Shown: positions 33,936-55,939 of the stretch, one piece after another
How positions within the stretch are numbered: position 1 is the first letter of the stretch
Layout of the letters: each line of letters starts with the position of its first letter
NCBI RefSeq assembly: GCF_016919405.1
Contig: NZ_CP070352.1
Coordinates: 992,001 to 1,056,000 of the forward strand
DNA: 64,000 nucleotides
Source of the DNA: Ensifer sp. PDNC004
GTDB lineage: Bacteria; Pseudomonadota; Alphaproteobacteria; Rhizobiales; Rhizobiaceae
Direction: 5' to 3'
Position numbers and translations under genes: made by a program
The notes under the pieces: generated by a model
Databases searched by the model: none
Told to the model about the DNA's origin: nothing
The model's input: only the letters and a program-made list of their open reading frames with translations

Positions 33936-35765
33936 ATGCGCGTGCAGATCACCAAGCCGGCTGACGCCGAAAAACGGACCCGAACCATTCGTCTGTCGCG
34001 CACGCTGGCGATCGTGATGGCAGCACTGGTCGCCTTGACCGCGGCCGTCATCCTGTCAGTCGTCTGGTTCATGTCGGCCGGAACGACGCGTGATCTGCTG
34101 GTGCAATCGGCGCATCTCGGGCTGGAGGCGGTGCAGACGCAAATCGGCAGCCGCTTTTCACCCGTGGAGGACCAGCTCGCATTTCTGGCACGGGAGGTCG
34201 GCGCAGGTCGTCTCGATCCAACGGATACGCTCGAACTCGAACGTGTGATGACCGGTGCCCTGGCGGCAACGCCGCAGGTTCGCGTGCTCTCCTTTGTCCG
34301 GCCAAACGGCGAGATCCTCGGCGTGACGCAGGGGCCCAAGGGTGTCTTTTCCTTCGCCGACAAGGTGACGAGCGATAACGAGCGTTCGGAGATCGAGGAA
34401 GCGCGACGCAGCGGCACGCCCCACTGGGGGCCTGTCTACTTCGTGCCCGATCCGGCGATCCGCACCTCGGTCGCGAACCTACAGCAGCCGGCGAACCTCG
34501 GGGACGAATTTGCCGGCATGTTCCGAGCGACCATCACGGTCGATGCCATGTCCGATTTCCTGCGCCAGATAGCGCTCTCGAACCCCGGGACGACGCCCTT
34601 CGTTCTCTACGGCCGCGACCAGGTGCTGGCCCATCCGCTGATGGCCGCGGGCCATCCGCTGCTGTCGGCAGAACACCGGTTGCCGACGCTTGACGAACTG
34701 GGCGATCCCTATCTCGCCGAACTGTGGAAAGGACCACCCGAGACTTTCGACGACACCGACATGGAGGTGCGGGCGGTCAAGCTTGGAAGAGATGACGGGC
34801 GGGTCATCCTGACGCGCGAAATCCGCGGCTACGCATCGGCCCCGCTCATCATCGGCGTCGAGGTTCCGATCGAATCGGTGGAGAAGCCGGTCTGGGATCT
34901 GCTGCGGGCCGGTCTTGCCGGTCTCGCCGTCCTGTTCGTCGCGATCGTCATCGCGTGGATTGTCGGGCGGCTGATCGTTCGTCCCGTCACCAGCATGGCC
35001 CGTGAGGTCCGTGCCGTCGGCATGCTCGATTTTGCGGCGCTCCGTCCGCTTCCCGGCAGCCTGTTCACCGAGCTCAACGAACAGGCCAAGGCCTACAACA
35101 CGATGCTGACTGGCCTTCGCTGGCTCGAGACCTACGTGCCGAAGAAACTCGTGCGCCACCTGATCGGCAGCGAAGACCTGGCCTCGACCCAACGCGTCGT
35201 CACCATCATGTTCACCGACGTGGTCGACTTCACCGCCACCGCCGAGAAGACCAGCGCCGGCGACGTCGCCGCGCTCTTGAACAGCCACTTCGACCTGCTC
35301 GGCCACTGCATCGAGAGCGAAGGCGGAACCATCGACAAGTTCATCGGCGATTGCGTCATGGCCTTCTGGGGCGCGCCCGATGCGCAAAAGGACCACGCCG
35401 ATCGCGCCGTCCGCGCGGCGCGCGGCATTGCCCGGGCGATCGCCAAGGACAATGCGGAGCGACAACGACAGGGCCTGCCACCACTCCGCCTGCGCATCGG
35501 CATCCATTCCGGCCCCGTCGTTGCCGGCAATATCGGAATGACCGGACGCTCGGCCTACACGATCGTCGGCGACACCGTGAATGCCTGCAACCGGCTGGAG
35601 CAGCTCGGCAAGGCGGTCGCGCCCGGCGAGGAGGTGGTGATGCTGCTGAGTGGAGAGACCTTCGACCTGGTGGCCGAGGATCGCTCCGATCTCATCCCGC
35701 TCGGCAAGCATTGCCTTGCCGGACGGACGGAGCTTACGGAAATCTACAGACTTCCTACGGTGTAG
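33936..35765 (+). CDS. Membrane class III adenylate/guanylate cyclase
   Basis: 609 residues: N-terminal helix (about 22-48), a periplasmic dCache-like sensor region (50-315), a second helix (320-345), a HAMP-like linker and a class III cyclase domain (about 410-580). The catalytic metal aspartates are in MFTDVVDFT and KFIGDCVMAFWG. It would make cAMP (or cGMP) in response to an external ligand; rhizobia carry many such cyclases. ATG 33936 is very close to GAGG; GTG 33942 has a better spacing (7 nt). The 3' end faces asbF. Confidence 0.9.
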   Translation: MRVQITKPADAEKRTRTIRLSRTLAIVMAALVALTAAVILSVVWFMSAGTTRDLLVQSAHLGLEAVQTQIGSRFSPVEDQLAFLAREVGAGRLDPTDTLELERVMTGALAATPQVRVLSFVRPNGEILGVTQGPKGVFSFADKVTSDNERSEIEEARRSGTPHWGPVYFVPDPAIRTSVANLQQPANLGDEFAGMFRATITVDAMSDFLRQIALSNPGTTPFVLYGRDQVLAHPLMAAGHPLLSAEHRLPTLDELGDPYLAELWKGPPETFDDTDMEVRAVKLGRDDGRVILTREIRGYASAPLIIGVEVPIESVEKPVWDLLRAGLAGLAVLFVAIVIAWIVGRLIVRPVTSMAREVRAVGMLDFAALRPLPGSLFTELNEQAKAYNTMLTGLRWLETYVPKKLVRHLIGSEDLASTQRVVTIMFTDVVDFTATAEKTSAGDVAALLNSHFDLLGHCIESEGGTIDKFIGDCVMAFWGAPDAQKDHADRAVRAARGIARAIAKDNAERQRQGLPPLRLRIGIHSGPVVAGNIGMTGRSAYTIVGDTVNACNRLEQLGKAVAPGEEVVMLLSGETFDLVAEDRSDLIPLGKHCLAGRTELTEIYRLPTV

Positions 35766-35809: not shown

Positions 35810-36655
35810 TCAGAAGCCCGCCGTTCTGCGGGCAGGCGCGCGCGCTTCGACCATGTGGTTGATCTGCTGGCGGTCTCCACGCAGGGTCTCGAAGCAATCG
35901 TTTCCGAACCATTCCAGCGACGCATCGGCCTGCGGGTCGCCTGTGATTTCTGAGAGGAAGCGGTCGTAGTCGACGGTGCCCTCAAACAGCGGCGTCATGC
36001 CCCGCCGGCTGCCGGCGGCGGCATAGACATTGGCGGGCTCGAACACGGTCAGGTCGGTGCGGTCGACAATGTTCTTCAGGTGATAGTGCCGGATATGCGG
36101 CTTCATCGACCGGTGCACCGCGACCGGATCGTCGCCGCCCTCCCACACATGCAGCGTATCGAAGTTGATCGCAAAGGCGGGGTGGCCGACCTCCTCGATC
36201 AACCGCACGGTCGAGGCCGCCGTGTCGGCCAGCGTTTTCGGATGGGTCTCGGCAAGCAGCTGGATGCCGTAGCCCGCGGTGATCGCGCAGATGTCCTTCA
36301 GCCGCGAAACGATCCGCTGCCGCTCGTCGGCGCTGACCTCGGCGCTGCCGCGATTGCCGGCAAAGGTCCGGATCTTGCGCGTCCGCCACCGGCGCGCCAG
36401 CCGGCAAAGCTCGACCGTCTTGGTGCGCAGCGTTTCGGCGTCGCCGTCGAGCGGCAGGTAGTCGCTGATCATCGGCACCGAGAGGCCATAGCCATCCAGC
36501 CATTCCGCATTACGGTCCGGGCGCGGCGCGAGATTTCGCGCATGCGCACCCCAGAGTTCGATGCCCTGGAAATCATTGGCTTCGGCCCAGGCGGCGATCT
36601 CGTCCAGCGATATGAGGTGATGCCGGAAGGTGATGGTGCAAAGCGAAACTCTCAT
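35810..36655 (-). CDS. asbF: 3-dehydroshikimate dehydratase (AsbF)
   Basis: 281 residues, TIM-barrel of the sugar isomerase/AP endonuclease superfamily. It resembles B. anthracis AsbF through much of its length (SLCTITFRHHLIS, GIELWGAHARNL, KIRTFAGNRGSAE, HVWEGGDDPV, FEPANVYAAAGSRRGM). Probable metal ligands are Glu136, Asp166, His192 and Glu248. AsbF converts 3-dehydroshikimate to 3,4-dihydroxybenzoate, the catechol used in petrobactin. Its ATG overlaps the stop of asbDE (ATGA, 4 bp), so it is the last gene of a coupled operon. Confidence 0.93.
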   Translation of the reverse strand: MRVSLCTITFRHHLISLDEIAAWAEANDFQGIELWGAHARNLAPRPDRNAEWLDGYGLSVPMISDYLPLDGDAETLRTKTVELCRLARRWRTRKIRTFAGNRGSAEVSADERQRIVSRLKDICAITAGYGIQLLAETHPKTLADTAASTVRLIEEVGHPAFAINFDTLHVWEGGDDPVAVHRSMKPHIRHYHLKNIVDRTDLTVFEPANVYAAAGSRRGMTPLFEGTVDYDRFLSEITGDPQADASLEWFGNDCFETLRGDRQQINHMVEARAPARRTAGF

Positions 36656-37965
36656 CGCGCAACTCTCTTCAAGGGGGTGTGGCTTTCCGCGGGGATGGCA
36701 AGGTCGCACCAGCGTTCGAAGACTTCGGCGAGCTTGGTTTTCAGTCTCGTTTCGAGCCGGTCCGCCTCGTCGAGGCGCTCGAAGACCGGCGCGGCCAGAG
36801 CGCGGTCGCCGGTCTGGGCCAGCTTCATGCAGGCGTAGTGCAGGGTCTTCAGCGCCTGGACCAGCGCCTCGATTTCCTCGCACCACCCTTCGAACTCGCC
36901 CGACGGCAGCTTCAGCGCCCGCCAGTAGAAGGCGAAACCGTGCTCATAGGCATATTTTCGGATGGTGATGACCGGCAGCTCACGCACCGCCGCGCCGAGA
37001 TCTGTAAGCATCACCCCGTTCGTGCCATCGAGATGCGCGGCAACGATCGCTCTGACGGCATCGACGAACGGATTGCGTTCCCGGACGAAGCAGGCCTCGA
37101 AATAGGCTTTCAGATCTTCGGCAAACGGCGCGCGTGCCTCGGCATTGTCGAAGACATAACCGCCACCGACGGTCGGCTGCATGATGGCGTGAATGACCTT
37201 CTCGCGGGCGATCTCGCCCTCCCAGCGATAGTCGGGATCGTGCACGAACCATGTGTCGGGATCGGCCGTCTCCTGCAGCATCAGATAGTGCGGGAAGGGG
37301 TTCTGGTTGAACTTGTTCTCGCGTTCCGGCAGGTGGAACATGTCGAGCATGACCATGACCGAGCCGGTCTCGCCGCGCTGCTTCAACAGCCCGAGGAGCA
37401 CCGCGAGGTTGTCGAGCTTGGTGCGCTGCGGGTCGTACCACTCGACGACGGAGACGCCGTAAAGCCGCTCGAACCAGCCGCGGAAAAATTCCTGGGTGAT
37501 GTCGGGTGCATGATAGAGAAGCTCGAAACGCTCGCTGACCGCGAATTTCGCGTCCCAGACGCCGAAATAGAATGGCCGCTGGTCCAGCCCGTTTCGCTTC
37601 AGGCCATCCGAAACGCAGCTGACAAAGCAATGGACCTTGATGTCGTAATAGGCCTCGCCGTGCACGCCTTCGTCGGTCGTCCCGCCGGTGAGCGGAAAGG
37701 CCGGCACGATGGTCGCGGTGGGCTTGGGCACATAGAGCGCGACGAGATCGGCGACCGTTTCGATCTCCTGTTTCGCGATCGCCTCTTCCGGCACCGACAG
37801 CCCGTATTCGAGCTCGAGATTGAGGAAGATTTCGAGGATCAGGACGGAGTCGAGATAAAGATCTTCGTTGAGGCGGGCGTCGAGGCCGAAGCCGTCCATA
37901 TGCCCATGCGCCATCTTGTCGGTCAGGACGGCCTCGACCGCCACCAGAACTTCGCTTTCGGTCAT
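36652..37965 (-). CDS. asbDE: Fused aryl carrier protein - condensing enzyme (AsbD-AsbE)
   Basis: 437 residues. Residues 1-80 form an acyl-carrier domain with RLNEDLYLDSVLILEIFLNLE, close to AsbD; Ser40 in the DSV motif should carry phosphopantetheine. After a Pro/Thr linker (about 77-100) comes an AsbE-like domain to the C-terminus (for example FYFGVWDAKFAV, FHLPERENKFNQNPFPHYL). In B. anthracis, AsbD and AsbE are separate proteins; AsbE joins carrier-bound 3,4-dihydroxybenzoate to spermidine. The coding frame is uninterrupted, so this is a true fusion. Overlaps asbC and asbF by 4 bp (ATGA) at either end. Confidence 0.9.
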   Translation of the reverse strand: MTESEVLVAVEAVLTDKMAHGHMDGFGLDARLNEDLYLDSVLILEIFLNLELEYGLSVPEEAIAKQEIETVADLVALYVPKPTATIVPAFPLTGGTTDEGVHGEAYYDIKVHCFVSCVSDGLKRNGLDQRPFYFGVWDAKFAVSERFELLYHAPDITQEFFRGWFERLYGVSVVEWYDPQRTKLDNLAVLLGLLKQRGETGSVMVMLDMFHLPERENKFNQNPFPHYLMLQETADPDTWFVHDPDYRWEGEIAREKVIHAIMQPTVGGGYVFDNAEARAPFAEDLKAYFEACFVRERNPFVDAVRAIVAAHLDGTNGVMLTDLGAAVRELPVITIRKYAYEHGFAFYWRALKLPSGEFEGWCEEIEALVQALKTLHYACMKLAQTGDRALAAPVFERLDEADRLETRLKTKLAEVFERWCDLAIPAESHTPLKRVAR

Positions 37966-39242
37966 GATGCGGCTCCCGCAATCGGTTTGTTGAATTCGCC
38001 TGCCAGATGACGGGCCGCGACGTCGCGGCGGCTGATCTTGCCGTTCGCCTGGCGCGGAACCGCGTCGATCTGCAGGATTTCCATCGGCAACTGGTGAGAT
38101 GCGAGGTGGCGGCTGCACCATTCGCGCACGGCTTGCGGCGCCACCGGCGCCTCGGCGCTGAAGAGCAACGCGACACGCTCCCCGGCAAAACGGTCGGCCT
38201 TGCGGAAGGCCACCGCATCGGTAACCTCCGGCATCGCCATGACCGCATCCTCCACGTCCTTCGGATAGACGTTGAGGCCGGAGACGTTGATCATGTCGTC
38301 CAGGCGGGAAACGAAGATGAGCATGCCGTCGGCGCGGCGGTAGCCGAGGTCGCGCGTGTGGATCGGCGCGCCGTCGCCGTTGCTGACGACGATCTCGCCC
38401 GTATCCTCGGCGCTGTCGCCGGTGGCGGCGATCAGATGCGGCAGGACGAAGCCCATGTCGCCGGCAGACGTCACATCGGGATTGATGGCGATGCAGCCGG
38501 ATTCCGAGCAGCCATATTGCTGGAACATGAAACGGCTCTTGGCGCGGATATCGGCAAACCACGGCTCGGGCAGCAGCGTGCCCGAGGTCATCGTCGCGTG
38601 GATCTGCTCGCCCGCGGGCATCAGCCGCGCTAGCGTATGCAGGATCGCCGGCGAGGAGTAGAGCAGCGGCCGTTCGGTCTCGCGCAGCACCTTCAGGAGA
38701 TATTTCGGGTTCGCGGTATTGACGATGACGGGTGTCTGCCCGCGCTTCAGTGCCACCAGGATACCGCAGATCAGCCCGTAGGAATGGGTGGCCGGGCAGG
38801 CGATGACCGGCGTCATGTCCTCCGGCTCGCGGAAGGTGCCGACATAGCTTTCGATCTCGGCATCGATTTCGGCCCACCTGCGCGCCACGCATTTCGGCGC
38901 GCCAGTCGTGCCGGAGCTCATCTGCAACAGCGTGCCTTCAGGCGAAAGCTGGCCGGATGGTTCGAGAACGTCGGCCGTCAGGCTGTTGTAGAACAGCCGG
39001 TCGCAGCTAGCACCGATCGCGAGCTTGCGCGCGGCCGGATAGGGTGTGCCCGGATGGATCGGCAGCACGCTCGCCCCTGCCTTGCGGATGGCAAAGAACA
39101 GCGCCAGCCAATCGGCCGTTTCCGAGAAGCAGACGGCGTAGCGGCCGGTGTCTTGCGCGCTCAGGCCGATCTCGGCTGCGAGCTCTGCCGATCTGGTGCT
39201 GAAATAGGCCTCGTCATAGAGCCTGTCGTCGATACGGATCAT
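37962..39242 (-). CDS. asbC: 3,4-dihydroxybenzoate-AMP ligase (AsbC)
   Basis: 426 residues, ANL adenylating family. Core motifs: A3 SSGTTGAPK (109-117), A5 YGCSESG, A7 HTRDLGYRRADG, A8 SRLDDMINVSGLNVYP, and the catalytic lysine of A10 in ANGKISRRD. AsbC activates 3,4-dihydroxybenzoate and loads it on the AsbD carrier, which here is the N-terminal domain of the next protein. Short for the family (usual AMP ligases about 500 residues), but AsbC itself is short. Starts in the stop codon of asbB (ATGA overlap). Confidence 0.92.
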   Translation of the reverse strand: MIRIDDRLYDEAYFSTRSAELAAEIGLSAQDTGRYAVCFSETADWLALFFAIRKAGASVLPIHPGTPYPAARKLAIGASCDRLFYNSLTADVLEPSGQLSPEGTLLQMSSGTTGAPKCVARRWAEIDAEIESYVGTFREPEDMTPVIACPATHSYGLICGILVALKRGQTPVIVNTANPKYLLKVLRETERPLLYSSPAILHTLARLMPAGEQIHATMTSGTLLPEPWFADIRAKSRFMFQQYGCSESGCIAINPDVTSAGDMGFVLPHLIAATGDSAEDTGEIVVSNGDGAPIHTRDLGYRRADGMLIFVSRLDDMINVSGLNVYPKDVEDAVMAMPEVTDAVAFRKADRFAGERVALLFSAEAPVAPQAVREWCSRHLASHQLPMEILQIDAVPRQANGKISRRDVAARHLAGEFNKPIAGAAS

Positions 39243-40975
39243 GGCTTTCTCCTTCGTTGGAGCGTTCTTGCGGCCAAGGCGTTCGCCACCTCGTGGTGGT
39301 ATTCCGGCTTGAGCGCGAGCAGCTTCCTCGTCATCAGGGATTCGGTCAGGATGCGGGGAAGGTCGCAGGCAAGCTGCGCCAGCCGCTCCGTCGCGCCGTG
39401 CTCCGCCTCGTAGGCGGCAAGCACGGTCTGGACGCGCTGCCAGAAGAGCGTTTCCGGCAGGTCGTAGCAGTGGTCGAGAAGGTGGGAGATCTCACTCAGA
39501 TTGTAGACGAACAGCGTGTCCATCACCAATTCGCGCAGCGAATCCAGGTTGTCCGTCCAATAGAACTGGTCAGGCTCCGCCTCCCGGTAAGCTGGATGGA
39601 GCGACAGGAAATCCGGCGCCTTTTCCGGCGCGCGCAGGAAGCCCGGCGAAAACTCGATGCTCTCGTGAAAATCACGAAGGATCAGCCGCACCGGCCAGCC
39701 ATCGCGATGGACCAGAAGCATGTTCTGCCCATGCGCTTCAACCGCCAGCCCATGGTGCACCAGGAGGTGCCAGACGGGTAGGACGGCGACTTCAATCAGG
39801 CGGTTGATCCAGGGCATCAGACCGAAGCGCTGGATCCAGTCGTCGGCGAAGGCACGCCCGTCCGCTTCGACCATCATCAGCGCGTTGAAGGGAATGACGG
39901 CCTCGCCTGAGCCAAGCGTCGCTTCCGCACTCTCGCGCCAGATGGCTGCGACCTGTCCGGCCAAAGGGCCGTCGCTGTCGGCGATGATGCCGGCATATTC
40001 CTGCAGGACGGTGAGCGGATAGCGGTCGCGAAAGGCCGGATCTCGGGCAACCATCCCGGCGATCCAGCGCGAGATCACCGGCGCCGTGCACACCGAATGC
40101 GCCTCAAGGATGCGGCGCGACGAGGTGTTGACCATGTTGAGCGGCAGCTTGATGCTCGCGGCCAGCGGCCGATCCTGGTTCAACAGGGAACGAACTGACT
40201 GCGTCGCCGTGTACCGGTCACCCGCCGGACCAAGGCAAAAGGCTTCACCCGCGGTGATCCAGCCCGAAAGCTCAGTCTCGCTGAGTTCGCGCCACTGCCA
40301 GGGATGCAGCGGCAGAAGGCCGAACAGGTCAGGCGAAACATCGCACTCGTGCCGCTTCGCCCGGAGTTCGGACCAGGTTTCCTCGCCCAGTTCCGTTTCC
40401 CAGAAGGCATCCTCATCACCAGGGATCGCGCAGCGAAGATGCTTGCGCGCCACCAGCAACCAGACGAGCTGGAACGCGCCCCCCATTTCGGGTCCATAGG
40501 CTGCATGGTCGGCGACGGAAAAGCCGGTACGTGCCTTATAGCAGGGGTGGTAGGGATGGCCCTCGTCCAGCGCTCCCTCCAACTCGGCAAATGACAAGGC
40601 GCGGCGCAGCCGCGTCGGTACCTGACGCTCGTTCCAGGCGCTGAAGGCAATCGTCTGCGTCAGTTCGTTGAGCAGCTTTCCGCGTGTCGGTCCGCTGCCC
40701 GGCAGGACGGATACCAACTGCGCCAGCGGCGGCACGACCCAGCCGTCGGCGTCATCGCGCATTTCTACCGATCCGGCAGCCAGCCGCAGCCGGCCAAAGG
40801 GACCGATGGCGCCGCAGCAGCGGAACTGCCGACCACCGAGCGACCAGTGGAAGGTGGTGATATCCCCGTCCGTGTGCTCGCTGGCCTCAACGATGCCTTC
40901 GAACAGCAGCGCGGCAACGAGCTGGCGGAGCACCCGCTCGTCCGGGCGGCCCTTGAGATCAAGAGGCAATGGCAT
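39239..40975 (-). CDS. asbB: NIS siderophore synthetase (AsbB, IucA/IucC family)
   Basis: 578 residues, IucA/IucC synthetase with ATP-binding stretch ATQSVRSLLN, catalytic HPWQWRE and C-terminal FhuF-like region. The HGQNMLL and LRDFHES pieces are family hallmarks. AsbB-type enzymes condense a (3,4-dihydroxybenzoyl-)spermidine with the second carboxylate of citrate. GAGG is 7 nt before ATG 40975, inside the 3' end of asbA (17-bp overlap). Confidence 0.92.
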   Translation of the reverse strand: MPLPLDLKGRPDERVLRQLVAALLFEGIVEASEHTDGDITTFHWSLGGRQFRCCGAIGPFGRLRLAAGSVEMRDDADGWVVPPLAQLVSVLPGSGPTRGKLLNELTQTIAFSAWNERQVPTRLRRALSFAELEGALDEGHPYHPCYKARTGFSVADHAAYGPEMGGAFQLVWLLVARKHLRCAIPGDEDAFWETELGEETWSELRAKRHECDVSPDLFGLLPLHPWQWRELSETELSGWITAGEAFCLGPAGDRYTATQSVRSLLNQDRPLAASIKLPLNMVNTSSRRILEAHSVCTAPVISRWIAGMVARDPAFRDRYPLTVLQEYAGIIADSDGPLAGQVAAIWRESAEATLGSGEAVIPFNALMMVEADGRAFADDWIQRFGLMPWINRLIEVAVLPVWHLLVHHGLAVEAHGQNMLLVHRDGWPVRLILRDFHESIEFSPGFLRAPEKAPDFLSLHPAYREAEPDQFYWTDNLDSLRELVMDTLFVYNLSEISHLLDHCYDLPETLFWQRVQTVLAAYEAEHGATERLAQLACDLPRILTESLMTRKLLALKPEYHHEVANALAARTLQRRRKP

Positions 40976-42743
40976 GGTCGGTCCTCGGCGCAGTCAGAAC
41001 GGCCGGCGCCCGGAGCGGGTTCGGCACAGGGCGATAAAGGGACGGCGCGTTGCTGGATTGCAGTTCGTCGACGTCGTAGAGGCGCGTCGTCAGGTTAGCC
41101 TTGGAGACGATCGTCGGCAGATCGAGCACGTGACGGGCGAAGTCGCGACCGGCGCCACTCATCCGGGTGGCATAGCGCTCGATATGCGCGCGCAATTCGC
41201 GCAGGAGCAGGCTCTCGTCGCAGAGCCCGTCATGGCCCATGCGGCTGATCACCGAGAAGACCTGATTGACGATCAGGTAATAGGCGAAGCGATCCCGGAT
41301 CTCGCTCTCGGCAAAATAGAGGGACGCGATCCTTTCAGTCTCGGGCACATGCCCGGCAATCAGGCTGCGATACCGCTCCGAGAGATAGAAGCCCTGATTG
41401 TCGCGGTAGTAGCTGACGGACGGATAGCCGGTGCCAACGTCCAACAGGCTGTTTTGCTGGTGGGCTTCAAGCGCTATCCCGTAGTCGTCATAGAGACGGA
41501 GCAGCGGTTCGACGGCGCAGTCGAGATAGCGGCGAAACCAGGCAAGCGCCGCATCCGCCAGGTTTTCGCCGGCGCGCAGAGCAGCCCTCTCAACCAGCCT
41601 TGCCAGCCGGGATGGCGCGCCGGGTAGCGGATCGGCGGTCAGGGCCGCGACGGTGACGACGCCCCGCCCGCCGCTCCCGAAAAACGGGTTCTCCCGCAGG
41701 ATGACTTCAAAGCCGCTCTCGCCGCGTCCCGGCACGTCGAGCGTGATGTAAGCGGGGTCCTGAATGATGCGGAAGTTTCGCGAGCGCTCGGCAAAACCGA
41801 TCCGGTCGATCAGCTTTGCCATTGCGACGCCCGCTTCGAGTTCCTGGCGACGGTTCAGCCGCACGGAGTTGGTGATGCGCACGGGCAGGGAGAACTTGAG
41901 CATCCAGTCGGCATCGGCGCCGTAGACCGTGCGCACCGACGAGGTCGCGGTGAAGGCCGGACCGGCGGGACCGAGATGCCGCAGCCGCCCCTCCCCCAAC
42001 AAGCCGCTGATATCGGGATCAAGCAGCAGCGCTTCGGCCTGGAGCGGATGCATCGGCAGCAGATATTCGTCGTCGCCGATCGCGAAGCCGTCAGTATCCG
42101 GTCCGACCAGCGACCGCACGATCTCGGGCGCTGCAACCGCGCGCGCGCAATCGTGCCTGATATCGCCGCGTTTTGCCGCGAAGTAGTGCAGCTTGAACTG
42201 GCCGCGCAGTTCCGGCGCGTAGCTCTCCTGCTGCCAATAGGTCATGCCCTGGCGGCTCTTCGGTGTCGGGTGCTGCCAATGGCCGAAAACGAGCGACTGC
42301 TCCGCTTCGATGAAATGTCCGCCGTCCGCCGGTTCCGGCGCGGCCCTGTCGATATAGAGTGCGGTCTGCTGGTAGCTTTCGAGCACGCGCATCAGCAGTT
42401 CGAGTTCGAAGCCGCGCAGGGCGTCCGCCTGGGCCTCGTCGACCTGGCGGTAGCACTCGTGCACCAGGATATGGAGCGCCGAAATCAGTTCGATCTGGCG
42501 CCAGGTGGCGTCGGACACGCCTCTGCCCCATACCCGGCCGAAATGGTGGGGGCCGCAGAGCGACGGCGACGTCACCTCGGCGCGCAGGATCATCTGCTGC
42601 CTGGGAAGAGACCATTCCACGCAGTCGACGGCGCGGCCTGGGGCGCGATGCATGGCCCGGATGCCCGGATTGACTTCGCGCAGGTAGCAGTTTGCGAAGC
42701 TTTGAAAGGTGGCTATTTCTGCGATTTGCCTAGACGATTGCAT
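40959..42743 (-). CDS. asbA: NIS siderophore synthetase (AsbA, IucA/IucC family)
   Basis: 594 residues. Close to AsbA of B. anthracis in many blocks: RQIAEIATFQSFANCYLRE, FIEAEQSLVFGHWQHPTPKSR, LLPMHPLQAEALL, TSSVRTVYGADADWMLKFSLP, EAHQQNSLL, YYRDNQGFY, LTTRLYDVDEL. AsbA couples spermidine to citrate with ATP in the first NIS step of petrobactin synthesis. ATG 42743 was chosen because GAGG is 6 nt upstream and alignment with AsbA starts there; an upstream ATG would add 12 residues. A weak FecI-type promoter element lies at 42796-42818. Confidence 0.93.
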   Translation of the reverse strand: MQSSRQIAEIATFQSFANCYLREVNPGIRAMHRAPGRAVDCVEWSLPRQQMILRAEVTSPSLCGPHHFGRVWGRGVSDATWRQIELISALHILVHECYRQVDEAQADALRGFELELLMRVLESYQQTALYIDRAAPEPADGGHFIEAEQSLVFGHWQHPTPKSRQGMTYWQQESYAPELRGQFKLHYFAAKRGDIRHDCARAVAAPEIVRSLVGPDTDGFAIGDDEYLLPMHPLQAEALLLDPDISGLLGEGRLRHLGPAGPAFTATSSVRTVYGADADWMLKFSLPVRITNSVRLNRRQELEAGVAMAKLIDRIGFAERSRNFRIIQDPAYITLDVPGRGESGFEVILRENPFFGSGGRGVVTVAALTADPLPGAPSRLARLVERAALRAGENLADAALAWFRRYLDCAVEPLLRLYDDYGIALEAHQQNSLLDVGTGYPSVSYYRDNQGFYLSERYRSLIAGHVPETERIASLYFAESEIRDRFAYYLIVNQVFSVISRMGHDGLCDESLLLRELRAHIERYATRMSGAGRDFARHVLDLPTIVSKANLTTRLYDVDELQSSNAPSLYRPVPNPLRAPAVLTAPRTDHAIAS

Positions 42744-42795
42744 CCTGATCCTCGGCACGCGACACGCATAGCCGCGCAATTGCGTTGGGCGCTTT

Positions 42796-42818
42796 CGACC
42801 AACACATTGAATTTTCTG
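42796..42818 (-). promoter_or_regulatory. Weak candidate ECF promoter before asbA
   Basis: On the plus strand CGACCAACAC and GAATTTT match parts of the element upstream of fecR (CGATCAGCAC and GAATTTT) with a one-base spacing change, but the CGTC of the -10 part is missing. It lies 53 bp before asbA, a distance like that of the receptor promoter. Low confidence; asbA may simply be read through from the receptor gene. Confidence 0.3.
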
Positions 42819-42844
42819 ATCCGAACTGTTTTGAAGCGGGCCGC

Positions 42845-43135
42845 TTAGCCGCCGGCTTGCCAGGCAAGCGGACCGGGCTCTTCCCGGAATGCAAAGCGCA
42901 GAAGATGGCTTTCGATCACCGATTTCGTGTCGGCGAGTTCGGCATCGTCGGGCGAGCGGGCGCGAATGCTGAGGCCATCGGCGGTCGCGTGGAGATAGCC
43001 GGTGCCGCAGTAGAACCGGAGCTCGGCGCGATCGCCCGCCTGTTCGACGTCGATCTTGTGGGCGAAATGCTTGCAGAGTTGCGTCAGGTACTTCTGGCCG
43101 TCTTCCGTCGCAAAATGGGTGGTCGCTTCTTGCAT
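42845..43135 (-). CDS. DUF2218 family protein
   Basis: 96 residues. Typical DUF2218: THFATEDGQKYLTQLCKHFAHKIDV at the N-terminus, a short beta-rich core (RAELRFYCGTGYLHATADGLSIRA) and the C-terminal helix VIESHLLRFAFREE. Function is unknown, but DUF2218 genes recur in siderophore and iron-uptake loci. Here it lies between the receptor and asbA on the same strand, with AGGAAG before ATG 43135. A role in iron release or in handling the ferric siderophore inside the cell is an inference. Confidence 0.85.
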   Translation of the reverse strand: MQEATTHFATEDGQKYLTQLCKHFAHKIDVEQAGDRAELRFYCGTGYLHATADGLSIRARSPDDAELADTKSVIESHLLRFAFREEPGPLAWQAGG

Positions 43136-43248
43136 CTGGAACTTCCTGTCTTTCGGCTTTCGCTGCTCTGGCGGCCGGGACTGACCGCCTGAGCGTCTTG
43201 GGCGGCTGCCGCCGGGAGGATCCGTCAGCCGCAGTCGGGACCGCCGAC

Positions 43249-45558
43249 CTAGAAGGTCGCTCTGGCGGTCAGGATAAAGGAACGTCCGGGCTCGTAGAGC
43301 GGCGTGACTTGACCGAATTCCTGACCGTAGGTCGCGCGGTCCGAATAGGTTTCGTCGAAGATGTTCTTGAGTTCGGCGCGCAGCGTCAGGTTTGGCCGCT
43401 GCGGCGGCACATATTCGACGAAAGCGTTGAAGACCTCGTAACCTTGAAGGGGCTTGGAGCCGGCGGCCACGTCGTCGTAGTCGAGCGCGATTTCGGCATC
43501 GGCGCCAAAGGTGACGCCCCAATCCGTCAATGTGTGCACCGCCTGCAGGGTGATGATCTGCCCGGCGGGGGTGGCGAGATAGGTGCCGAGGTCGGAATCG
43601 GCCGGCTTGCCATCGATCTCGACGTCGATATTGGCGTATTTCACCTTGAAATAGCCGTCGCCCCAGTTGTAGCCGCCGCCGATCTCGAACCCGCGTGAGC
43701 GGACGTCATGGGCCTCGATCCCGCGCGCAACGGCAAACCGTGGCGTGCGGGCGTCGTCGAGATCTGTCTGGAAAACGCTGCCTTCCACGGTAAAGCCGTT
43801 GTAGTTTGCCTCCAGCCCGAGGATGTAGTTGTCTGCCGTCACCGGCTTCGGGCCGTTGCCATAATCCCAGTTGGGATTGATGATGAAATTCTCGGCGAGC
43901 GGAATTCCGGCCCACACATGCGAGTAGCCGGCTTTGGCCGTCAACAGGTCTTCGACGAGGTCGTATTCGCCCGAGACGTTTCCGCTGAAACCGGAGTTGT
44001 TCCACGTCTGGCCGGTGGTGCCGGTAAAGCGCTGATTGTCGCCGCGCGCACCGAAGGAGAGGCGTGTGCGCTCGAAGGGCTCCAGCCGCGCCTGGGCATA
44101 GAGACCGACATTGCGCGCCTTCTCCGAGCCCGGATCGAAGAGATCCCTGAGCTTTGCCTCGTCATCGTAGAAATCGATGCCGGCGACGACGTTGCCGATA
44201 TCGAAGGAGAACTTGTTCTCGAACTTGCCGTTGAAGCTGTCCGACGCGCCGACACCCTGGTAGCTCACAGGAATGCCCGGCGTCGGCTTCGGATAAACAG
44301 GCACCTCGACTTCGGTCTTGCTGTAGGCGAGCAGCAATGTCGGATCCCACCAGCCCTCGGGCGTGCTGTCGGTATAGGTGAACACCGTGTTGCCCCGTTC
44401 GAGCGTGTAGTCGCGGATGCGTGGCTCCCAGGGCTTGCTGCCCGTCGTCGATCCCATATTGGCGCGGAACGGTCGCGGTGCATCGTCGCGTATGCTGTCG
44501 TGGCTGATCTCGAAGCGGTCGCCGCTGTCGAACTCGTAGGCGAGTTTTCCAAGCCCGCTCAAGAGGTCGGTGGAGGTTCCCTGCACTTCCTGGCCGTTGC
44601 CGGCGGTGAAATCGTTGCCGGTTCCGAAGTTGAAGTACCCGAGGAACTCCAATCCGTCTCGCATGCCGTAGGCCGAGAGCCCGGTTGTCACCGTGTTGCT
44701 GTTGAAATTGTAGCTGGACGTGACGGAGCCGCCAAAGCCGTCGCCGTCCAGCAGATCGCGCGCATCGATCGTTTCATAGGAAATCGCGCCGGCGAGCGCC
44801 CCCGGACCGGCATCGGCCGGCGCGACGCCGGCATCGACGTTGACGGCCTTGAGCAGGCCCGGATCAATCAGGTTCGTGCCGTTGTGATGAAAGACCTTGT
44901 TGTTCTGCCGGCCGCCGTCCATCGTCACCGCGAGGCTGGTTTCCTCGATGCCATGGACATAGACCTTCTGCGACATCGGCAGCGAACTGCCGACCGAAAT
45001 GCCGGGCTCGCCGGAAAACACGTCGGCAATGTTGGCGGGGTTCTTGCGCTTCAGGTCTTCCGACGAGATGACGATCTCGCCAGCGCCGAGCGGCCCGGCG
45101 CCGAAGGCCGAAATCGGATCGAGCACCGTTGCGCCGTCCGCAGCGACAGCAGCGCTGCCACCCGCCGAAACGGCCGAACCGACCAGCGCGGTCCCGCCCG
45201 ATATCCTGTAGGAAATGCCTGTGCCGGACAAAAGCCGGGCAAGCGCCTGGTCCGCCGTCATCGTTCCGCTGACCTTGGCCGAGCGAAGCCCCTGCGATGT
45301 TGAAGCCGCCAGGGTCACCTGCAGGCCGGACTGTCGCCCGAAGGCGTTGAGCGCGGTGGAAAGCGGCTGCGACGGGATGTCGAAGCTGCGGGCATTGCTG
45401 ACGCGCGACGCGGTCTGCTGGGCGGAGACCGTGGAAACGGGCATCAGCGCGAGGGAGGAAAACGCGGCGATCGCCGTCGTCGTCAGCAGGCGCCGTCTTT
45501 CACGGCGACGTCCCGTATCGAATTTCAGATGTCCCTTGCGGCATTTCGGCGAACGCAT
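43249..45558 (-). CDS. TonB-dependent siderophore receptor with STN signalling domain (FecA type)
   Basis: 769 residues: signal peptide (about 20-50 after a basic N-terminus), an STN domain at about 55-125 (FDIPSQPLSTALNAFGRQSGLQV, DQALARLLSGTGISYRI), a plug domain (VHGIEETSLAVTMDGGRQNN) and a 22-strand barrel ending in the terminal Phe. The STN domain contacts FecR-like anti-sigma proteins, matching the adjacent fecR and fecI genes. Probably takes up the ferric petrobactin-type siderophore. ATG 45558 follows GGGGGTAAG. Confidence 0.92.
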   Translation of the reverse strand: MRSPKCRKGHLKFDTGRRRERRRLLTTTAIAAFSSLALMPVSTVSAQQTASRVSNARSFDIPSQPLSTALNAFGRQSGLQVTLAASTSQGLRSAKVSGTMTADQALARLLSGTGISYRISGGTALVGSAVSAGGSAAVAADGATVLDPISAFGAGPLGAGEIVISSEDLKRKNPANIADVFSGEPGISVGSSLPMSQKVYVHGIEETSLAVTMDGGRQNNKVFHHNGTNLIDPGLLKAVNVDAGVAPADAGPGALAGAISYETIDARDLLDGDGFGGSVTSSYNFNSNTVTTGLSAYGMRDGLEFLGYFNFGTGNDFTAGNGQEVQGTSTDLLSGLGKLAYEFDSGDRFEISHDSIRDDAPRPFRANMGSTTGSKPWEPRIRDYTLERGNTVFTYTDSTPEGWWDPTLLLAYSKTEVEVPVYPKPTPGIPVSYQGVGASDSFNGKFENKFSFDIGNVVAGIDFYDDEAKLRDLFDPGSEKARNVGLYAQARLEPFERTRLSFGARGDNQRFTGTTGQTWNNSGFSGNVSGEYDLVEDLLTAKAGYSHVWAGIPLAENFIINPNWDYGNGPKPVTADNYILGLEANYNGFTVEGSVFQTDLDDARTPRFAVARGIEAHDVRSRGFEIGGGYNWGDGYFKVKYANIDVEIDGKPADSDLGTYLATPAGQIITLQAVHTLTDWGVTFGADAEIALDYDDVAAGSKPLQGYEVFNAFVEYVPPQRPNLTLRAELKNIFDETYSDRATYGQEFGQVTPLYEPGRSFILTARATF

Positions 45559-45610
45559 CTTACCCCCGTCTCGGCATTCCACGCGGCCTTGCGGGCGCGC
45601 GTTTCCAACC

Positions 45611-45640
45611 AAAGACGACCGGCCCCGGATTTTTTTTCAC
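45611..45640 (-). promoter_or_regulatory. ECF (FecI-type) promoter element before receptor gene
   Basis: In minus-strand sense: GTGAAAAAAAATCCGG (-35 region) and TCGTCTTT (-10 region), spanning 30 bp. It is identical in 26 of 30 positions to the element upstream of fecR. The CGTC core is typical of -10 elements of ECF sigma factors. It ends 53 bp before the receptor start. Confidence 0.75.
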
Positions 45641-45675
45641 CGGCGCGCGATTTTTTCCTGATTTTTTTACTCCAA

Positions 45676-46674
45676 TTAAAACCGCGTCAGGATGCGGCCA
45701 TAGCGGGTCACTTCGCGCACTTTGCCGCCGAAGGGCTGCACCAGCGCCTGGAGCGCACGATCCGGATCCTTTAGGTCGTAGACGCCGGTCACGCGCCGCG
45801 CCGCGAGATCGGGCTGCGGAATGGAGATCCAGGCGGAATGGTAGCGCTGCAGCCGCTCGGCGGCTGCAGCGACCGTCACATCATTGACGAACATCCTGCC
45901 GCTTCGCCAGGCGCCGATCTCGTCTTCCGCGATCGCACTCCGCACGACCGCGCCGGTCGCATGGCTCACCGTCGCCATTTCTCCCGGCGCCAGTTCGAAG
46001 TTCTGCCTGTGCGCGTTGGCGCTGTAGGAGACGGCGACCGTGCCGTGCGCCAACTCGACGGTCGTCTCGGTGCTCGCCAGCTGCACATCGAACGCGGTCC
46101 CGAGCACGGACACCTCGACGCCCCCCGCCTCGACGACGAAAGGACGCGAGGGATCGCGGGCCACGTTGAAAAAGGCTTCGCCCTTCAGGAGCCTGACATG
46201 GCGGGTCCCGGCGCCGATGTCGGTGGCGATGGCGCTGCCGCCGCCCATTTCGATGATCGTCCCGTCCACGAGCGTAACCGTCCTGTTTTGCGCCGTCTCG
46301 GTCACATGATCGGCCTGCCACCACACGAAAAGCGACGGCACGGAGACGAAAAGCGCGAGGCAGGCAGCAAGCGCCAGCGCCACGCCGGCGGCCAAGCCGC
46401 TCGTCCCCATCCGGCGGCGTTGGCGGATCGTTGTTTCGACGGCAACGGACGGTCTTGCCCCGCGCCAAAGATGCTCGTTCACCGGCGGCACCTCGCCGAG
46501 CAGCTGCCAGGTCCGCAAAGCCGTCTCCCAGGCCTGGGCATGCAGATCCGACTGGCCCAGCCACGCACGGAACCCGGCCTCCGTCTCGCGACAGTTCGGG
46601 CGCGCCTTCAACTCGAGGAACCAGTCCATGGCCTCCTCGAGCAGAGCCTCCGATATGTGGTTGTCCTTGGTCAA
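45676..46674 (-). CDS. fecR: FecR family anti-sigma regulator
   Basis: 332 residues: an N-terminal cytoplasmic part that should bind the sigma factor (about 1-90, WFLELKARPNCRETEAGFRAWLGQ), one membrane helix (about 100-120, LAAGVALALAACLALFVSVPSLF), and a periplasmic FecR domain (FVEAGGVEVSVLGTAFDVQ) that receives the signal from the receptor STN domain. The start is a TTG at 46674 with AAGG upstream. A 165-bp gap to fecI contains an ECF promoter element, so fecR has its own transcript as well. Confidence 0.92.
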   Translation of the reverse strand: MTKDNHISEALLEEAMDWFLELKARPNCRETEAGFRAWLGQSDLHAQAWETALRTWQLLGEVPPVNEHLWRGARPSVAVETTIRQRRRMGTSGLAAGVALALAACLALFVSVPSLFVWWQADHVTETAQNRTVTLVDGTIIEMGGGSAIATDIGAGTRHVRLLKGEAFFNVARDPSRPFVVEAGGVEVSVLGTAFDVQLASTETTVELAHGTVAVSYSANAHRQNFELAPGEMATVSHATGAVVRSAIAEDEIGAWRSGRMFVNDVTVAAAAERLQRYHSAWISIPQPDLAARRVTGVYDLKDPDRALQALVQPFGGKVREVTRYGRILTRF

Positions 46675-46791
46675 AGCCTTGCCTGCCGCTTGGATGATCG
46701 ACGCCCTAGCACCTTGTTTCTGTAGCCCCCTACCCCGTCAAGCGGCGTCACCGGGAAGCGGGACGCTTCCGTGGTTCCTTCGCACTGTCTT

Positions 46792-46821
46792 AAAGACGAT
46801 CAGCACCGGAATTTTTTTCAC
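46792..46821 (-). promoter_or_regulatory. ECF (FecI-type) promoter element before fecR
   Basis: In minus-strand sense: GTGAAAAAAATTCCGG, then TCGTCTTT; same 30-bp architecture as the element before the receptor (differences at 4 positions). It lies 118 bp before the fecR start, within the gap downstream of fecI. Confidence 0.72.
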
Positions 46822-46839
46822 ACGGGGACCCCTGAAATT

Positions 46840-47382
46840 CTAGGAGGCGCCGCCGGCAAGCGTTGTCGCAACCCGCATCATGGCGGAGCGCACGTGGCGG
46901 TGTGCCGTCGCGACGGAGATGTCGAGGTGGGCTGCGATCTCTTCCAGGGTATAGCCGCCGAAACGGTGCATCTCGAGTGCAACCCGCACGTCCTCGGGTA
47001 GGTCTTCGAGAATACCGGAGATGCGTCTTATTTCATCGCTGACGAGGATGATGTCTTCGGGCGTCGGCACCTCGATCGGCATGGACCAGAACGGCGGCTC
47101 GCTCTGCTCCTCCCGCGCTTCGATCTTGCGTCGTTTCAGGAGGTCGAGGGACAGGTTGCGGACGATCTTGTAGAGATACGCGAGCGACAGGCCGGACGGC
47201 CCCGCCGAGGGCGGACTGCCGGTATTTGCCGGCGCGAATCGGATGAAGGCCTCCTGCACGATATCTTCGGCCGTTTCCCGCGATCCGACGATCCGCGTGG
47301 CATAGGCGACCAGGGCAGTGCGGTTGGCGAAATAGACCTGATGGCGCGTGTCCGTGTCGACCACTGTGTCTGATCCGATCAA
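46840..47382 (-). CDS. fecI: ECF RNA polymerase sigma factor (FecI-like)
   Basis: 180 residues: region 2 (VAYATRIVGSRETAEDIVQEAFIRF, YLYKIVRNLSLDLLKRR) and region 4 (LPEDVRVALEMHRFGGYTLEEIAAHLDISVATAHRHVRSAMM). It should direct RNA polymerase to the two conserved elements in front of fecR and the receptor when the receptor is occupied. The start codon is TTG 47382 with no good ribosome site; GTG 47364 is an alternative. First gene of the siderophore locus. Confidence 0.92.
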   Translation of the reverse strand: MIGSDTVVDTDTRHQVYFANRTALVAYATRIVGSRETAEDIVQEAFIRFAPANTGSPPSAGPSGLSLAYLYKIVRNLSLDLLKRRKIEAREEQSEPPFWSMPIEVPTPEDIILVSDEIRRISGILEDLPEDVRVALEMHRFGGYTLEEIAAHLDISVATAHRHVRSAMMRVATTLAGGAS

Positions 47383-47506
47383 ATAATTTCGATTTGGCGC
47401 GCCGTGCGCACCCCTGCCGGCAGGCGATCGATGGCCAGGGACCGACCGAGCGCGGTGTCTCTTAGCACGCAGAAATAAACTTGTCTGTAATACTCATGTT
47501 AAAATT

Positions 47507-51134: not shown

Positions 51135-51154
51135 TGTCGGAATAAGGTCCGACA
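51135..51154 (-). other. Hairpin in the leader of the TerC/Alx gene
   Basis: TGTCGGA (51135-51141) and TCCGACA (51148-51154) form a perfect 7-bp stem with a 6-nt loop, 40 nt upstream of the start codon. In the mRNA the loop reads CCUUAU. It may be part of a regulated leader; no known riboswitch class was recognised. Confidence 0.45.
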
Positions 51155-51346
51155 TCGCAAGAGTGCCGAAGCTCTCGCCAGAGGGGCCCGGACCAGCGGG
51201 TTAGGCAGCAGATGGGAGCTCGGTTTTCCGGTATCAAGAGAGGCTCGCGATTTTTTTGTGAGGACTCGGCCGCGCTTGCCGGCGGCCGAACCGTTGTGGT
51301 CAAAAGGACCGACGAGATCGTTTCTTGCAGCGTGTGAGGTTGGACC

Positions 51347-55698: not shown

Positions 55699-55939
55699 CG
55701 CCGCCTCTCTGAGGGAACTTTCCGGCCCGCGACGGCTTACCCAAGGGTGTGCGCGCCGTGTCAACCGGACGTGACAGGGATGGCGAACATGGCGGTTTTT
55801 CCGGTTTCCCGCCATGGCCGACGCAATGGCAGTCGAGCGCCCCACCTGTCCGGTGCGCCACACGCTGTCGGCGAAGCATCGCCGGCAGCACGATCGGAAG
55901 GACTTTGCCGGACTTTCAAAATGCCCGGCGACGCCGAAC

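Follow-up and report, generated by a model that had tools for sequence, protein, structure and literature searches.

Is the synthesis of a siderophore governed by the same signal as its uptake, and what holds the two together when their genes are rearranged? This question is raised by a locus of Ensifer sp. PDNC004 (Rhizobiaceae), which lies in a stretch of 64,000 nucleotides (contig NZ_CP070352.1, positions 992,001 to 1,056,000; hereafter the window, whose own numbering we use). Genes for a FecI-type sigma factor, a FecR-type anti-sigma factor and a TonB-dependent receptor are followed here by genes for petrobactin-type biosynthesis (asb), and we consider it highly probable that the whole locus operates as a single cell-surface-signalling regulon. 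Both the locus and the way it is controlled are already known from studies of close relatives. Its nine genes are all open frames on the minus strand, running from 47382 to 35810:

46840..47382, minus strand: fecI, extracytoplasmic function (ECF) sigma factor (Pfam Sigma70_r2/r4; NCBIfam sigma70-ECF, 86 bits)
45676..46674, minus strand: fecR, anti-sigma factor (Pfam DUF4880 and FecR, 71 bits)
43249..45558, minus strand: TonB-dependent receptor with STN signalling domain, orthologue of fprA (Pfam STN, plug and barrel; 80% identity to Sinorhizobium (S.) fredii USDA 205, locus L036)
42845..43135, minus strand: DUF2218 protein (Pfam, 88 bits; 80% identity to L036; solved relative 2jpi, a hypothetical protein)
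40959..42743, minus strand: asbA, non-ribosomal peptide synthetase-independent siderophore (NIS) synthetase (Pfam IucA_IucC and FhuF; closest solved chains IucA and AcsD)
39239..40975, minus strand: asbB, NIS synthetase (Pfam; solved AsbB 3to3, E=1.6e-99)
37962..39242, minus strand: asbC, aryl-adenylating enzyme (Pfam AMP-binding; NF006167, 549 bits, cut-off 513)
36652..37965, minus strand: asbDE, aryl carrier domain fused to a DUF6005 (AsbE) condensing enzyme, both in one frame
35810..36655, minus strand: asbF, predicted 3-dehydroshikimate dehydratase making 3,4-dihydroxybenzoate (AP_endonuc_2, 90 bits; solved AsbF 3dx5)

An earlier note on this DNA had described the same nine genes, their common direction and these outer coordinates, and domain content and open frames bear it out. 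From asbA to asbF, consecutive genes overlap by a few bases at every junction. The gaps between receptor and DUF2218 gene and between DUF2218 gene and asbA measure about 100 bp each, and no terminator-like site was found on the minus strand from the receptor to asbA; across the region, such sites occur at chance level. The start of fecI is probably the GTG at 47364 (174 residues), which aligns with an ATG in most relatives, rather than the listed TTG at 47382, and that of the receptor is probably the ATG at 45558. ECF sigma factor, FecR-domain protein and STN-domain receptor adjoin one another, as is characteristic of FecI/FecR cell-surface signalling. We rejected a chance set of look-alike genes: all frames are open, their order is kept in relatives, and the marker gene described below occurs in every species of the genus.

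All six asb functions claimed in the note are present, with the qualification that a single fused gene encodes both AsbD and AsbE (DUF6005/AsbE, 487 bits); its score with the AsbD model NF005798 (59.7 bits) is under the cut-off of 100. AsbB matches its solved counterpart 3to3 best (337 bits; next chain 160), the two NIS synthetases AsbA and AsbB score 191 and 223 bits with IucA_IucC, and AsbC exceeds the cut-off of NF006167, a family whose name does not say AsbC. AsbF has its best match in the structure database in 3dx5 (E=1.7e-75 over 1-265). The active site of the solved enzyme comprises Tyr70, Arg102, Glu142, His144, Asp172, His175, His198, Lys200, Phe211, Tyr217 and Glu253 (PMC9324987); by hand mapping on the 3dx5 alignment, all 11 are kept in the window protein, as Tyr66, Arg96, Glu136, His138, Asp166, His169, His192, Lys194, Phe205, Tyr211 and Glu248, with conservation of 98% or more in each of these columns across 56 AsbF rows. 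This full active site argues for a 3,4-dihydroxybenzoate unit in the predicted product. The C-terminal part of FecR matches the FecR-like solved chains 6ovk_R and 4m0n; 6ovk_R was deposited as a siderophore-interacting protein, and the other FecR structure matches are two putative anti-sigma chains. For the receptor, the description as STN-type holds and that as FecA-type does not: the FecA model covers only the N-terminal signalling part (53 bits over residues 55-164; cut-off 1100), so that we rejected a FecA orthologue. By sequence, its relatives are HasR/haem and FrpB receptors (solved FrpB/HasR chains and haem family models).

Four elements lie upstream of fecI, fecR and the receptor:

46792..46820, minus strand: FecI-type ECF promoter of fecR, predicted by sequence, TGAAAAAAATTCCGGTGCTGATCGTCTTT; exact TGAAAAAA-N13-TCGTCTTT, conserved in relatives
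45611..45639, minus strand: FecI-type ECF promoter of the receptor and downstream operon, predicted by sequence, TGAAAAAAAATCCGGGGCCGGTCGTCTTT; exact TGAAAAAA-N13-TCGTCTTT, conserved in relatives
47475..47500, minus strand: conserved block AACATGAGTATTACAGACAAGTTTAT before fecI with TGA-N9-ACA inside, candidate RirA-type operator and promoter (alignment of 14 sequences)
45659..45673, minus strand: GGA-N9-TCA directly before the receptor promoter, putative operator of RirA type, one base off TGA-N9-TCA

The two near-identical promoter sites are the sole exact matches to TGAAAAAA-N13-TCGTCTTT in the 6.78 Mb genome, and allowing two mismatches adds just three more (reversed-pattern control: one). 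A pattern built from these two promoters matches nothing else in the window (0.00 expected), a result that follows in part from how it was built. The block before fecI is recognizable in 14 aligned loci, most strongly among Ensifer, and lies one base off TGA-N9-TCA; at the receptor site, the perfect pattern is found in 6 of the 14 (L037, L038, L042, L046, L047 and L070). Although S. fredii shows RirA peaks at fecI and fprA (PMC8822346), bare TGA-N9-TCA is common (21 in the window against 9.83 expected), and we therefore refer to both window sites as candidates only.

We propose the following scheme. AsbF would convert 3-dehydroshikimate to 3,4-dihydroxybenzoate, which AsbC would load onto the carrier domain of AsbDE, before the AsbE part, AsbA and AsbB couple two aryl units, two polyamines and citrate; this joining is established for the Asb pathway. 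The ferric siderophore would re-enter through the STN receptor, whose signal through FecR would free FecI. Freed FecI would then transcribe fecR and, from one further promoter, the receptor, the DUF2218 gene and the entire asb operon, while iron-replete repression, probably by RirA, would act at fecI and at the receptor promoter.

The closest published precedent is the S. fredii locus fecI-fecR-fprA-c14010-asbABCDEF, likewise from the Rhizobiaceae, to which the window locus is orthologous with identical gene order; the DUF2218 gene is, by its position, probably the counterpart of c14010. Compared with S. fredii USDA 205, the window proteins show 72-87% identity, the published experiments having been done in strain CCBAU45436. 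In the latter, according to the work in PMC8822346, fprA to fatB form one transcript by reverse transcription PCR (RT-PCR), FecI-Flag binds the fecR and fprA promoters, and asbA expression drops in rirA fecI and rirA rseP double mutants. FecI is reported to activate directly and RirA to repress, with RirA peaks in chromatin immunoprecipitation at fecI and fprA, and fprA mutations suppress both the rirA phenotype and siderophore overproduction (PMC8822346). Binding of FecI before fecR and the receptor is what the window promoters predict. The roles of FecI, RseP and RirA have thus been tested in S. fredii, whereas the window strain is known by its sequence; by analogy with the orthologue, FecI activation and RirA repression would be expected here as well. 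S. fredii differs in carrying fatBDCE after asbF, which the window lacks; in USDA 205, four open reading frames (ORFs) follow asbF, the first encoding a Peripla_BP_2 protein. Ensifer adhaerens Casida A, named in the same work as carrying FecIR homologues in the same syntenic locus (PMC8822346), is closer still, its DNA matching 99% of the window locus at 90.4% identity (NZ_CP015881, plasmid pCasidaAA). Among the matches listed, the literature on petrobactin with FecI, E. adhaerens or alphaproteobacteria contained no other apparent study of this FecI control in rhizobia.

The earlier view, which confined such loci to Bacillus and marine gammaproteobacteria, is outdated, as alphaproteobacterial ones have been published (PMC8822346, PMC11317620, PMC13251462). 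The assignment of the window as a petrobactin-type NIS locus under FecI/FecR/receptor control, by contrast, is supported by domains, active-site residues, promoters and the S. fredii orthology. A survey of carriers, also suggested in the note, found the AsbE marker (DUF6005) in 16 of 16 genomes (species) of the genus, the window's own included, as well as in 29 of 297 genomes sampled evenly across the family. The potential to make a petrobactin-type siderophore, whose synthesis would be under receptor-linked sigma-factor control, thus appears to be a consistent trait of Ensifer species. It is relevant to competition for iron in the rhizosphere and, going by the findings in S. fredii, to iron overload in nodules. 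For comparison, we used the window and the best 80 of 81 confirmed named loci (L numbers), from a scan reaching close relatives only. A FastTree phylogeny of AsbA, AsbB, AsbC and AsbDE, computed without bootstrap from the 76 of 81 rows in which each of these matched over at least 80% and with several long branches flagged, joins the window to E. adhaerens L18 and ST2, followed by other Ensifer and then S. fredii USDA 205.

Within this set, the gene arrangement varies, and the position of the ECF promoter varies with it. The 500 bases preceding each gene were scanned for a relaxed motif (-35 with at most one mismatch, -10 as TCGT[CA][TC]), for which the reversed-sequence control gave 0 in every arrangement class; L065 (no AsbA match) and L084 (AsbA only cross-matching its asbB) were omitted. 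In 28 loci arranged like the window, with the fec genes first, the motif precedes fecR in 26, the receptor in 24 and asbA in none. In the 16 loci with asb first, it precedes the receptor and asbA in all 16, and fecR in 2. Where the locus is split and fecIR-receptor stand elsewhere in the genome (n=7), asbA has the motif in 6 of 7, and the separate fec stretches have it before both fecR and receptor in 7 of 7. Lastly, it is found before asbA in none of 28 loci without a close fecI match, fecI having been searched near the locus only; 17 of these have a distant FecR (27-36% identity) nearby, and hence other Fec systems. A stricter regular expression over 700 bases gave the same pattern (fec-first: fecR 17, receptor 14, asbA 0 of 28; asb-first: fecR 0, receptor 16, asbA 16 of 16), its shortfall in the fec-first class falling mostly on a Peteryoungia-type group of 10, in which the -10 is mostly CGTAT. 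Conversely, it finds the L046 receptor promoter that the relaxed motif missed, the spacer there being shorter. Whole-genome searches of the seven split genomes with up to one mismatch returned 3, 3, 3, 3, 2, 1 and 3 matches, against none for the control; by contig position, the three in G318 stand before fecR, receptor and asbA. As the loci share descent, these counts are not independent; the arrangement label changes at least seven times on the tree. From the promoters, FecI control of synthesis, and not of uptake alone, seems to be kept when linkage changes. We found no published report of this among the matches listed from the petrobactin literature on FecI, E. adhaerens or alphaproteobacteria, and it widens the regulatory finding made in one strain to a family-wide, testable rule.

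Two of these cases are worth describing individually. In three split Ensifer loci (L039, L040 and L041), asbA has a promoter that matches the receptor promoter of fec-first Ensifer exactly or almost exactly and lies 409-469 bases upstream, giving a leader of more than 400 bases, and their own fecIR-receptor set is more distant (FecI 55-57%); it looks as if the receptor had been replaced and its promoter kept. In another genome, the fecIR-adjacent receptor (L155, G323:C35:27939-30217) is read in two frames, by sequencing error or decay, and the asbA of the same genome (L044) has no ECF motif.

How far do these data favor a single regulon over other arrangements? Several points weigh against it. 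Some fec-first loci show no relaxed ECF motif before the receptor (4 of 28) or fecR (2 of 28), and neither control region of the window contains the strict TGA-N9-TCA. In S. fredii, asbA transcripts of a rirA mutant fell only slightly on deletion of the receptor (PMC8822346), so that receptor-driven induction may be modest. On the chemical side, 'mass spectro' and 'spermidine' have no occurrence in the main text of PMC8822346, where the S. fredii product was apparently not identified by its mass. Scanning of the flanking ORFs revealed no fat ABC importer, and the closest FatB-like protein encoded in the genome reaches just 40% identity, its gene lying on contig C2 in a FecCD/ABC cluster.

FecI and FecR might govern the receptor only, with asb under an iron-regulated promoter of its own. 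E. coli FecI is not known to control more than transport, and the two gaps of about 100 bp that separate receptor, DUF2218 gene and asbA could hold such a promoter. This is nevertheless quite unlikely, given that in S. fredii asbA depends on FecI for its expression and RT-PCR shows co-transcription (PMC8822346), and given the ECF motif before asbA in asb-first and most split loci, which is missing in the fec-first loci, where asbA follows the receptor. We give slightly less credence still to a receptor that serves haem or a foreign siderophore and stands beside asb incidentally. Its best families are the haem models TIGR01785 (176 bits) and TIGR01786 (164 bits), in line with the solved FrpB/HasR chains, but both scores are under their cut-offs (317 and 324), and the receptor is linked to asb or under the same promoter type across Rhizobiaceae lineages; the suppressing effect of fprA mutations in S. 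fredii (PMC8822346) likewise ties it to the siderophore. A single regulon remains the best description of the control.

The identity of the product deserves separate consideration. That it is petrobactin itself is an inference, and the pathway might be real and yet yield an analogue, either a homospermidine-containing or acetylated compound like rhodopetrobactin or one with 4-hydroxybenzoate like methylolanthanin. Members of Rhodopseudomonas and Methylorubrum, whose related loci are in our tree although the tested strains are not, make rhodopetrobactin or methylolanthanin (PMC11317620, PMC13251462); M. extorquens PA1, for instance, makes rhodopetrobactin B (PMC13251462). The methylolanthanin locus mll/mluARI of Methylorubrum extorquens AM1 shares homologues of AsbA, AsbB, AsbC, AsbDE and AsbF, DUF2218, TonB receptor, anti-sigma and sigma factor with the window, but has fused asbBC, GNAT and DUF4142 genes and a 4-hydroxybenzoate product serving lanthanides (PMC11317620). 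Related loci of this type carry the ECF motif of the window before asbA in 0 of 28 cases. The rhodopetrobactin locus of Rhodopseudomonas palustris shares AsbABC, the AsbDE fusion, AsbF, DUF2218, receptor and sigma/anti-sigma pair (PMC11317620, PMC13251462), but includes an acetyltransferase and has another gene order (PMC11317620); FecI and FecR of Rhodopseudomonas loci are 24-30% identical to those of the window. The AsbDE fusion, also described for roseobactin loci, is common to the window and the rhodopetrobactin and methylolanthanin types (PMC11317620). The petrobactin loci asbABCDEF of Bacillus and Marinobacter have all six functions in common with the window, with separate asbD and asbE in Bacillus (PMC11317620), which, being Gram-positive, has no outer-membrane receptor. 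Further in favor of an analogue, only an nspC homologue was found for spermidine supply, at 397 bits just under the cut-off of 409. Against the acetylated form, a scan of the locus genes and 10 flanking ORFs showed no GNAT acetyltransferase. The complete AsbF active site favors 3,4-dihydroxybenzoate, although the methylolanthanin locus also has an AsbF homologue (PMC11317620). On balance, an analogue is a possibility to be reckoned with, if less probable than not.

As to import, a FatB-like binding protein is encoded in the window's genome divergently from two FecCD permeases and an ATPase (L119:3094-6934), a candidate siderophore importer.

The comparison also revealed that asbF is missing after asbDE in 24 of 75 rows (L081 excluded, the contig ending there), with at least six changes on the tree. 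In these 24 loci, a search for AsbF at E up to 1 gave just one short match, a stretch of 24 residues matching the AsbF N-terminus (58%, E=0.041) right after asbDE in Rhodopseudomonas pentothenatexigens (L103:11311-11379), possibly an asbF remnant. Whole-genome searches of 18 asbF-less genomes, many of them drafts, found no clear AsbF in any (best 28% over about 100 residues; L043, L048-L051, L054, L059, L063, L071, L073, L076, L077, L080, L083, L085, L087, L097 and L103), and both controls were found at E<1e-160. The missing genes raise a chemical question, namely where such producers obtain their aryl unit. The protocatechuate-forming enzyme PobA exceeds its cut-off in 17 of these 18 genomes and in 7 of 10 asbF-bearing ones, a pattern that does not cleanly split the two groups and is suggestive only. 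Likewise, an alignment of AsbC from asbF-plus and asbF-minus loci, without mapping of the pocket on a structure, showed scattered differences and no parallel change toward another aryl substrate. We therefore advance with some reserve, and as a little less probable than its opposite, the combined proposal that in Rhizobiaceae the sigma-factor promoter, rather than linkage, keeps the regulon together, with receptor-sensed control of synthesis under selection, and that asbF has been lost repeatedly from an otherwise retained pathway, many producers drawing the aryl unit from general protocatechuate metabolism. If true, asbF loss would tie siderophore synthesis to aromatic catabolism.

Three further features were noted in the window. 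A 609-residue ORF with an adenylate/guanylate cyclase catalytic domain (33936-35765, plus strand) is convergent with asbF. A terC RNA (RF03067, 62.9 bits; 51140-51199, minus strand) falls within the listed ORF of a TerC-family protein on the same strand, probably 5' of its true start. Lastly, the Rhizobiales small RNA Atu_At1 (RF02496, 115.9 bits) is found at 55749-55856 on the plus strand.

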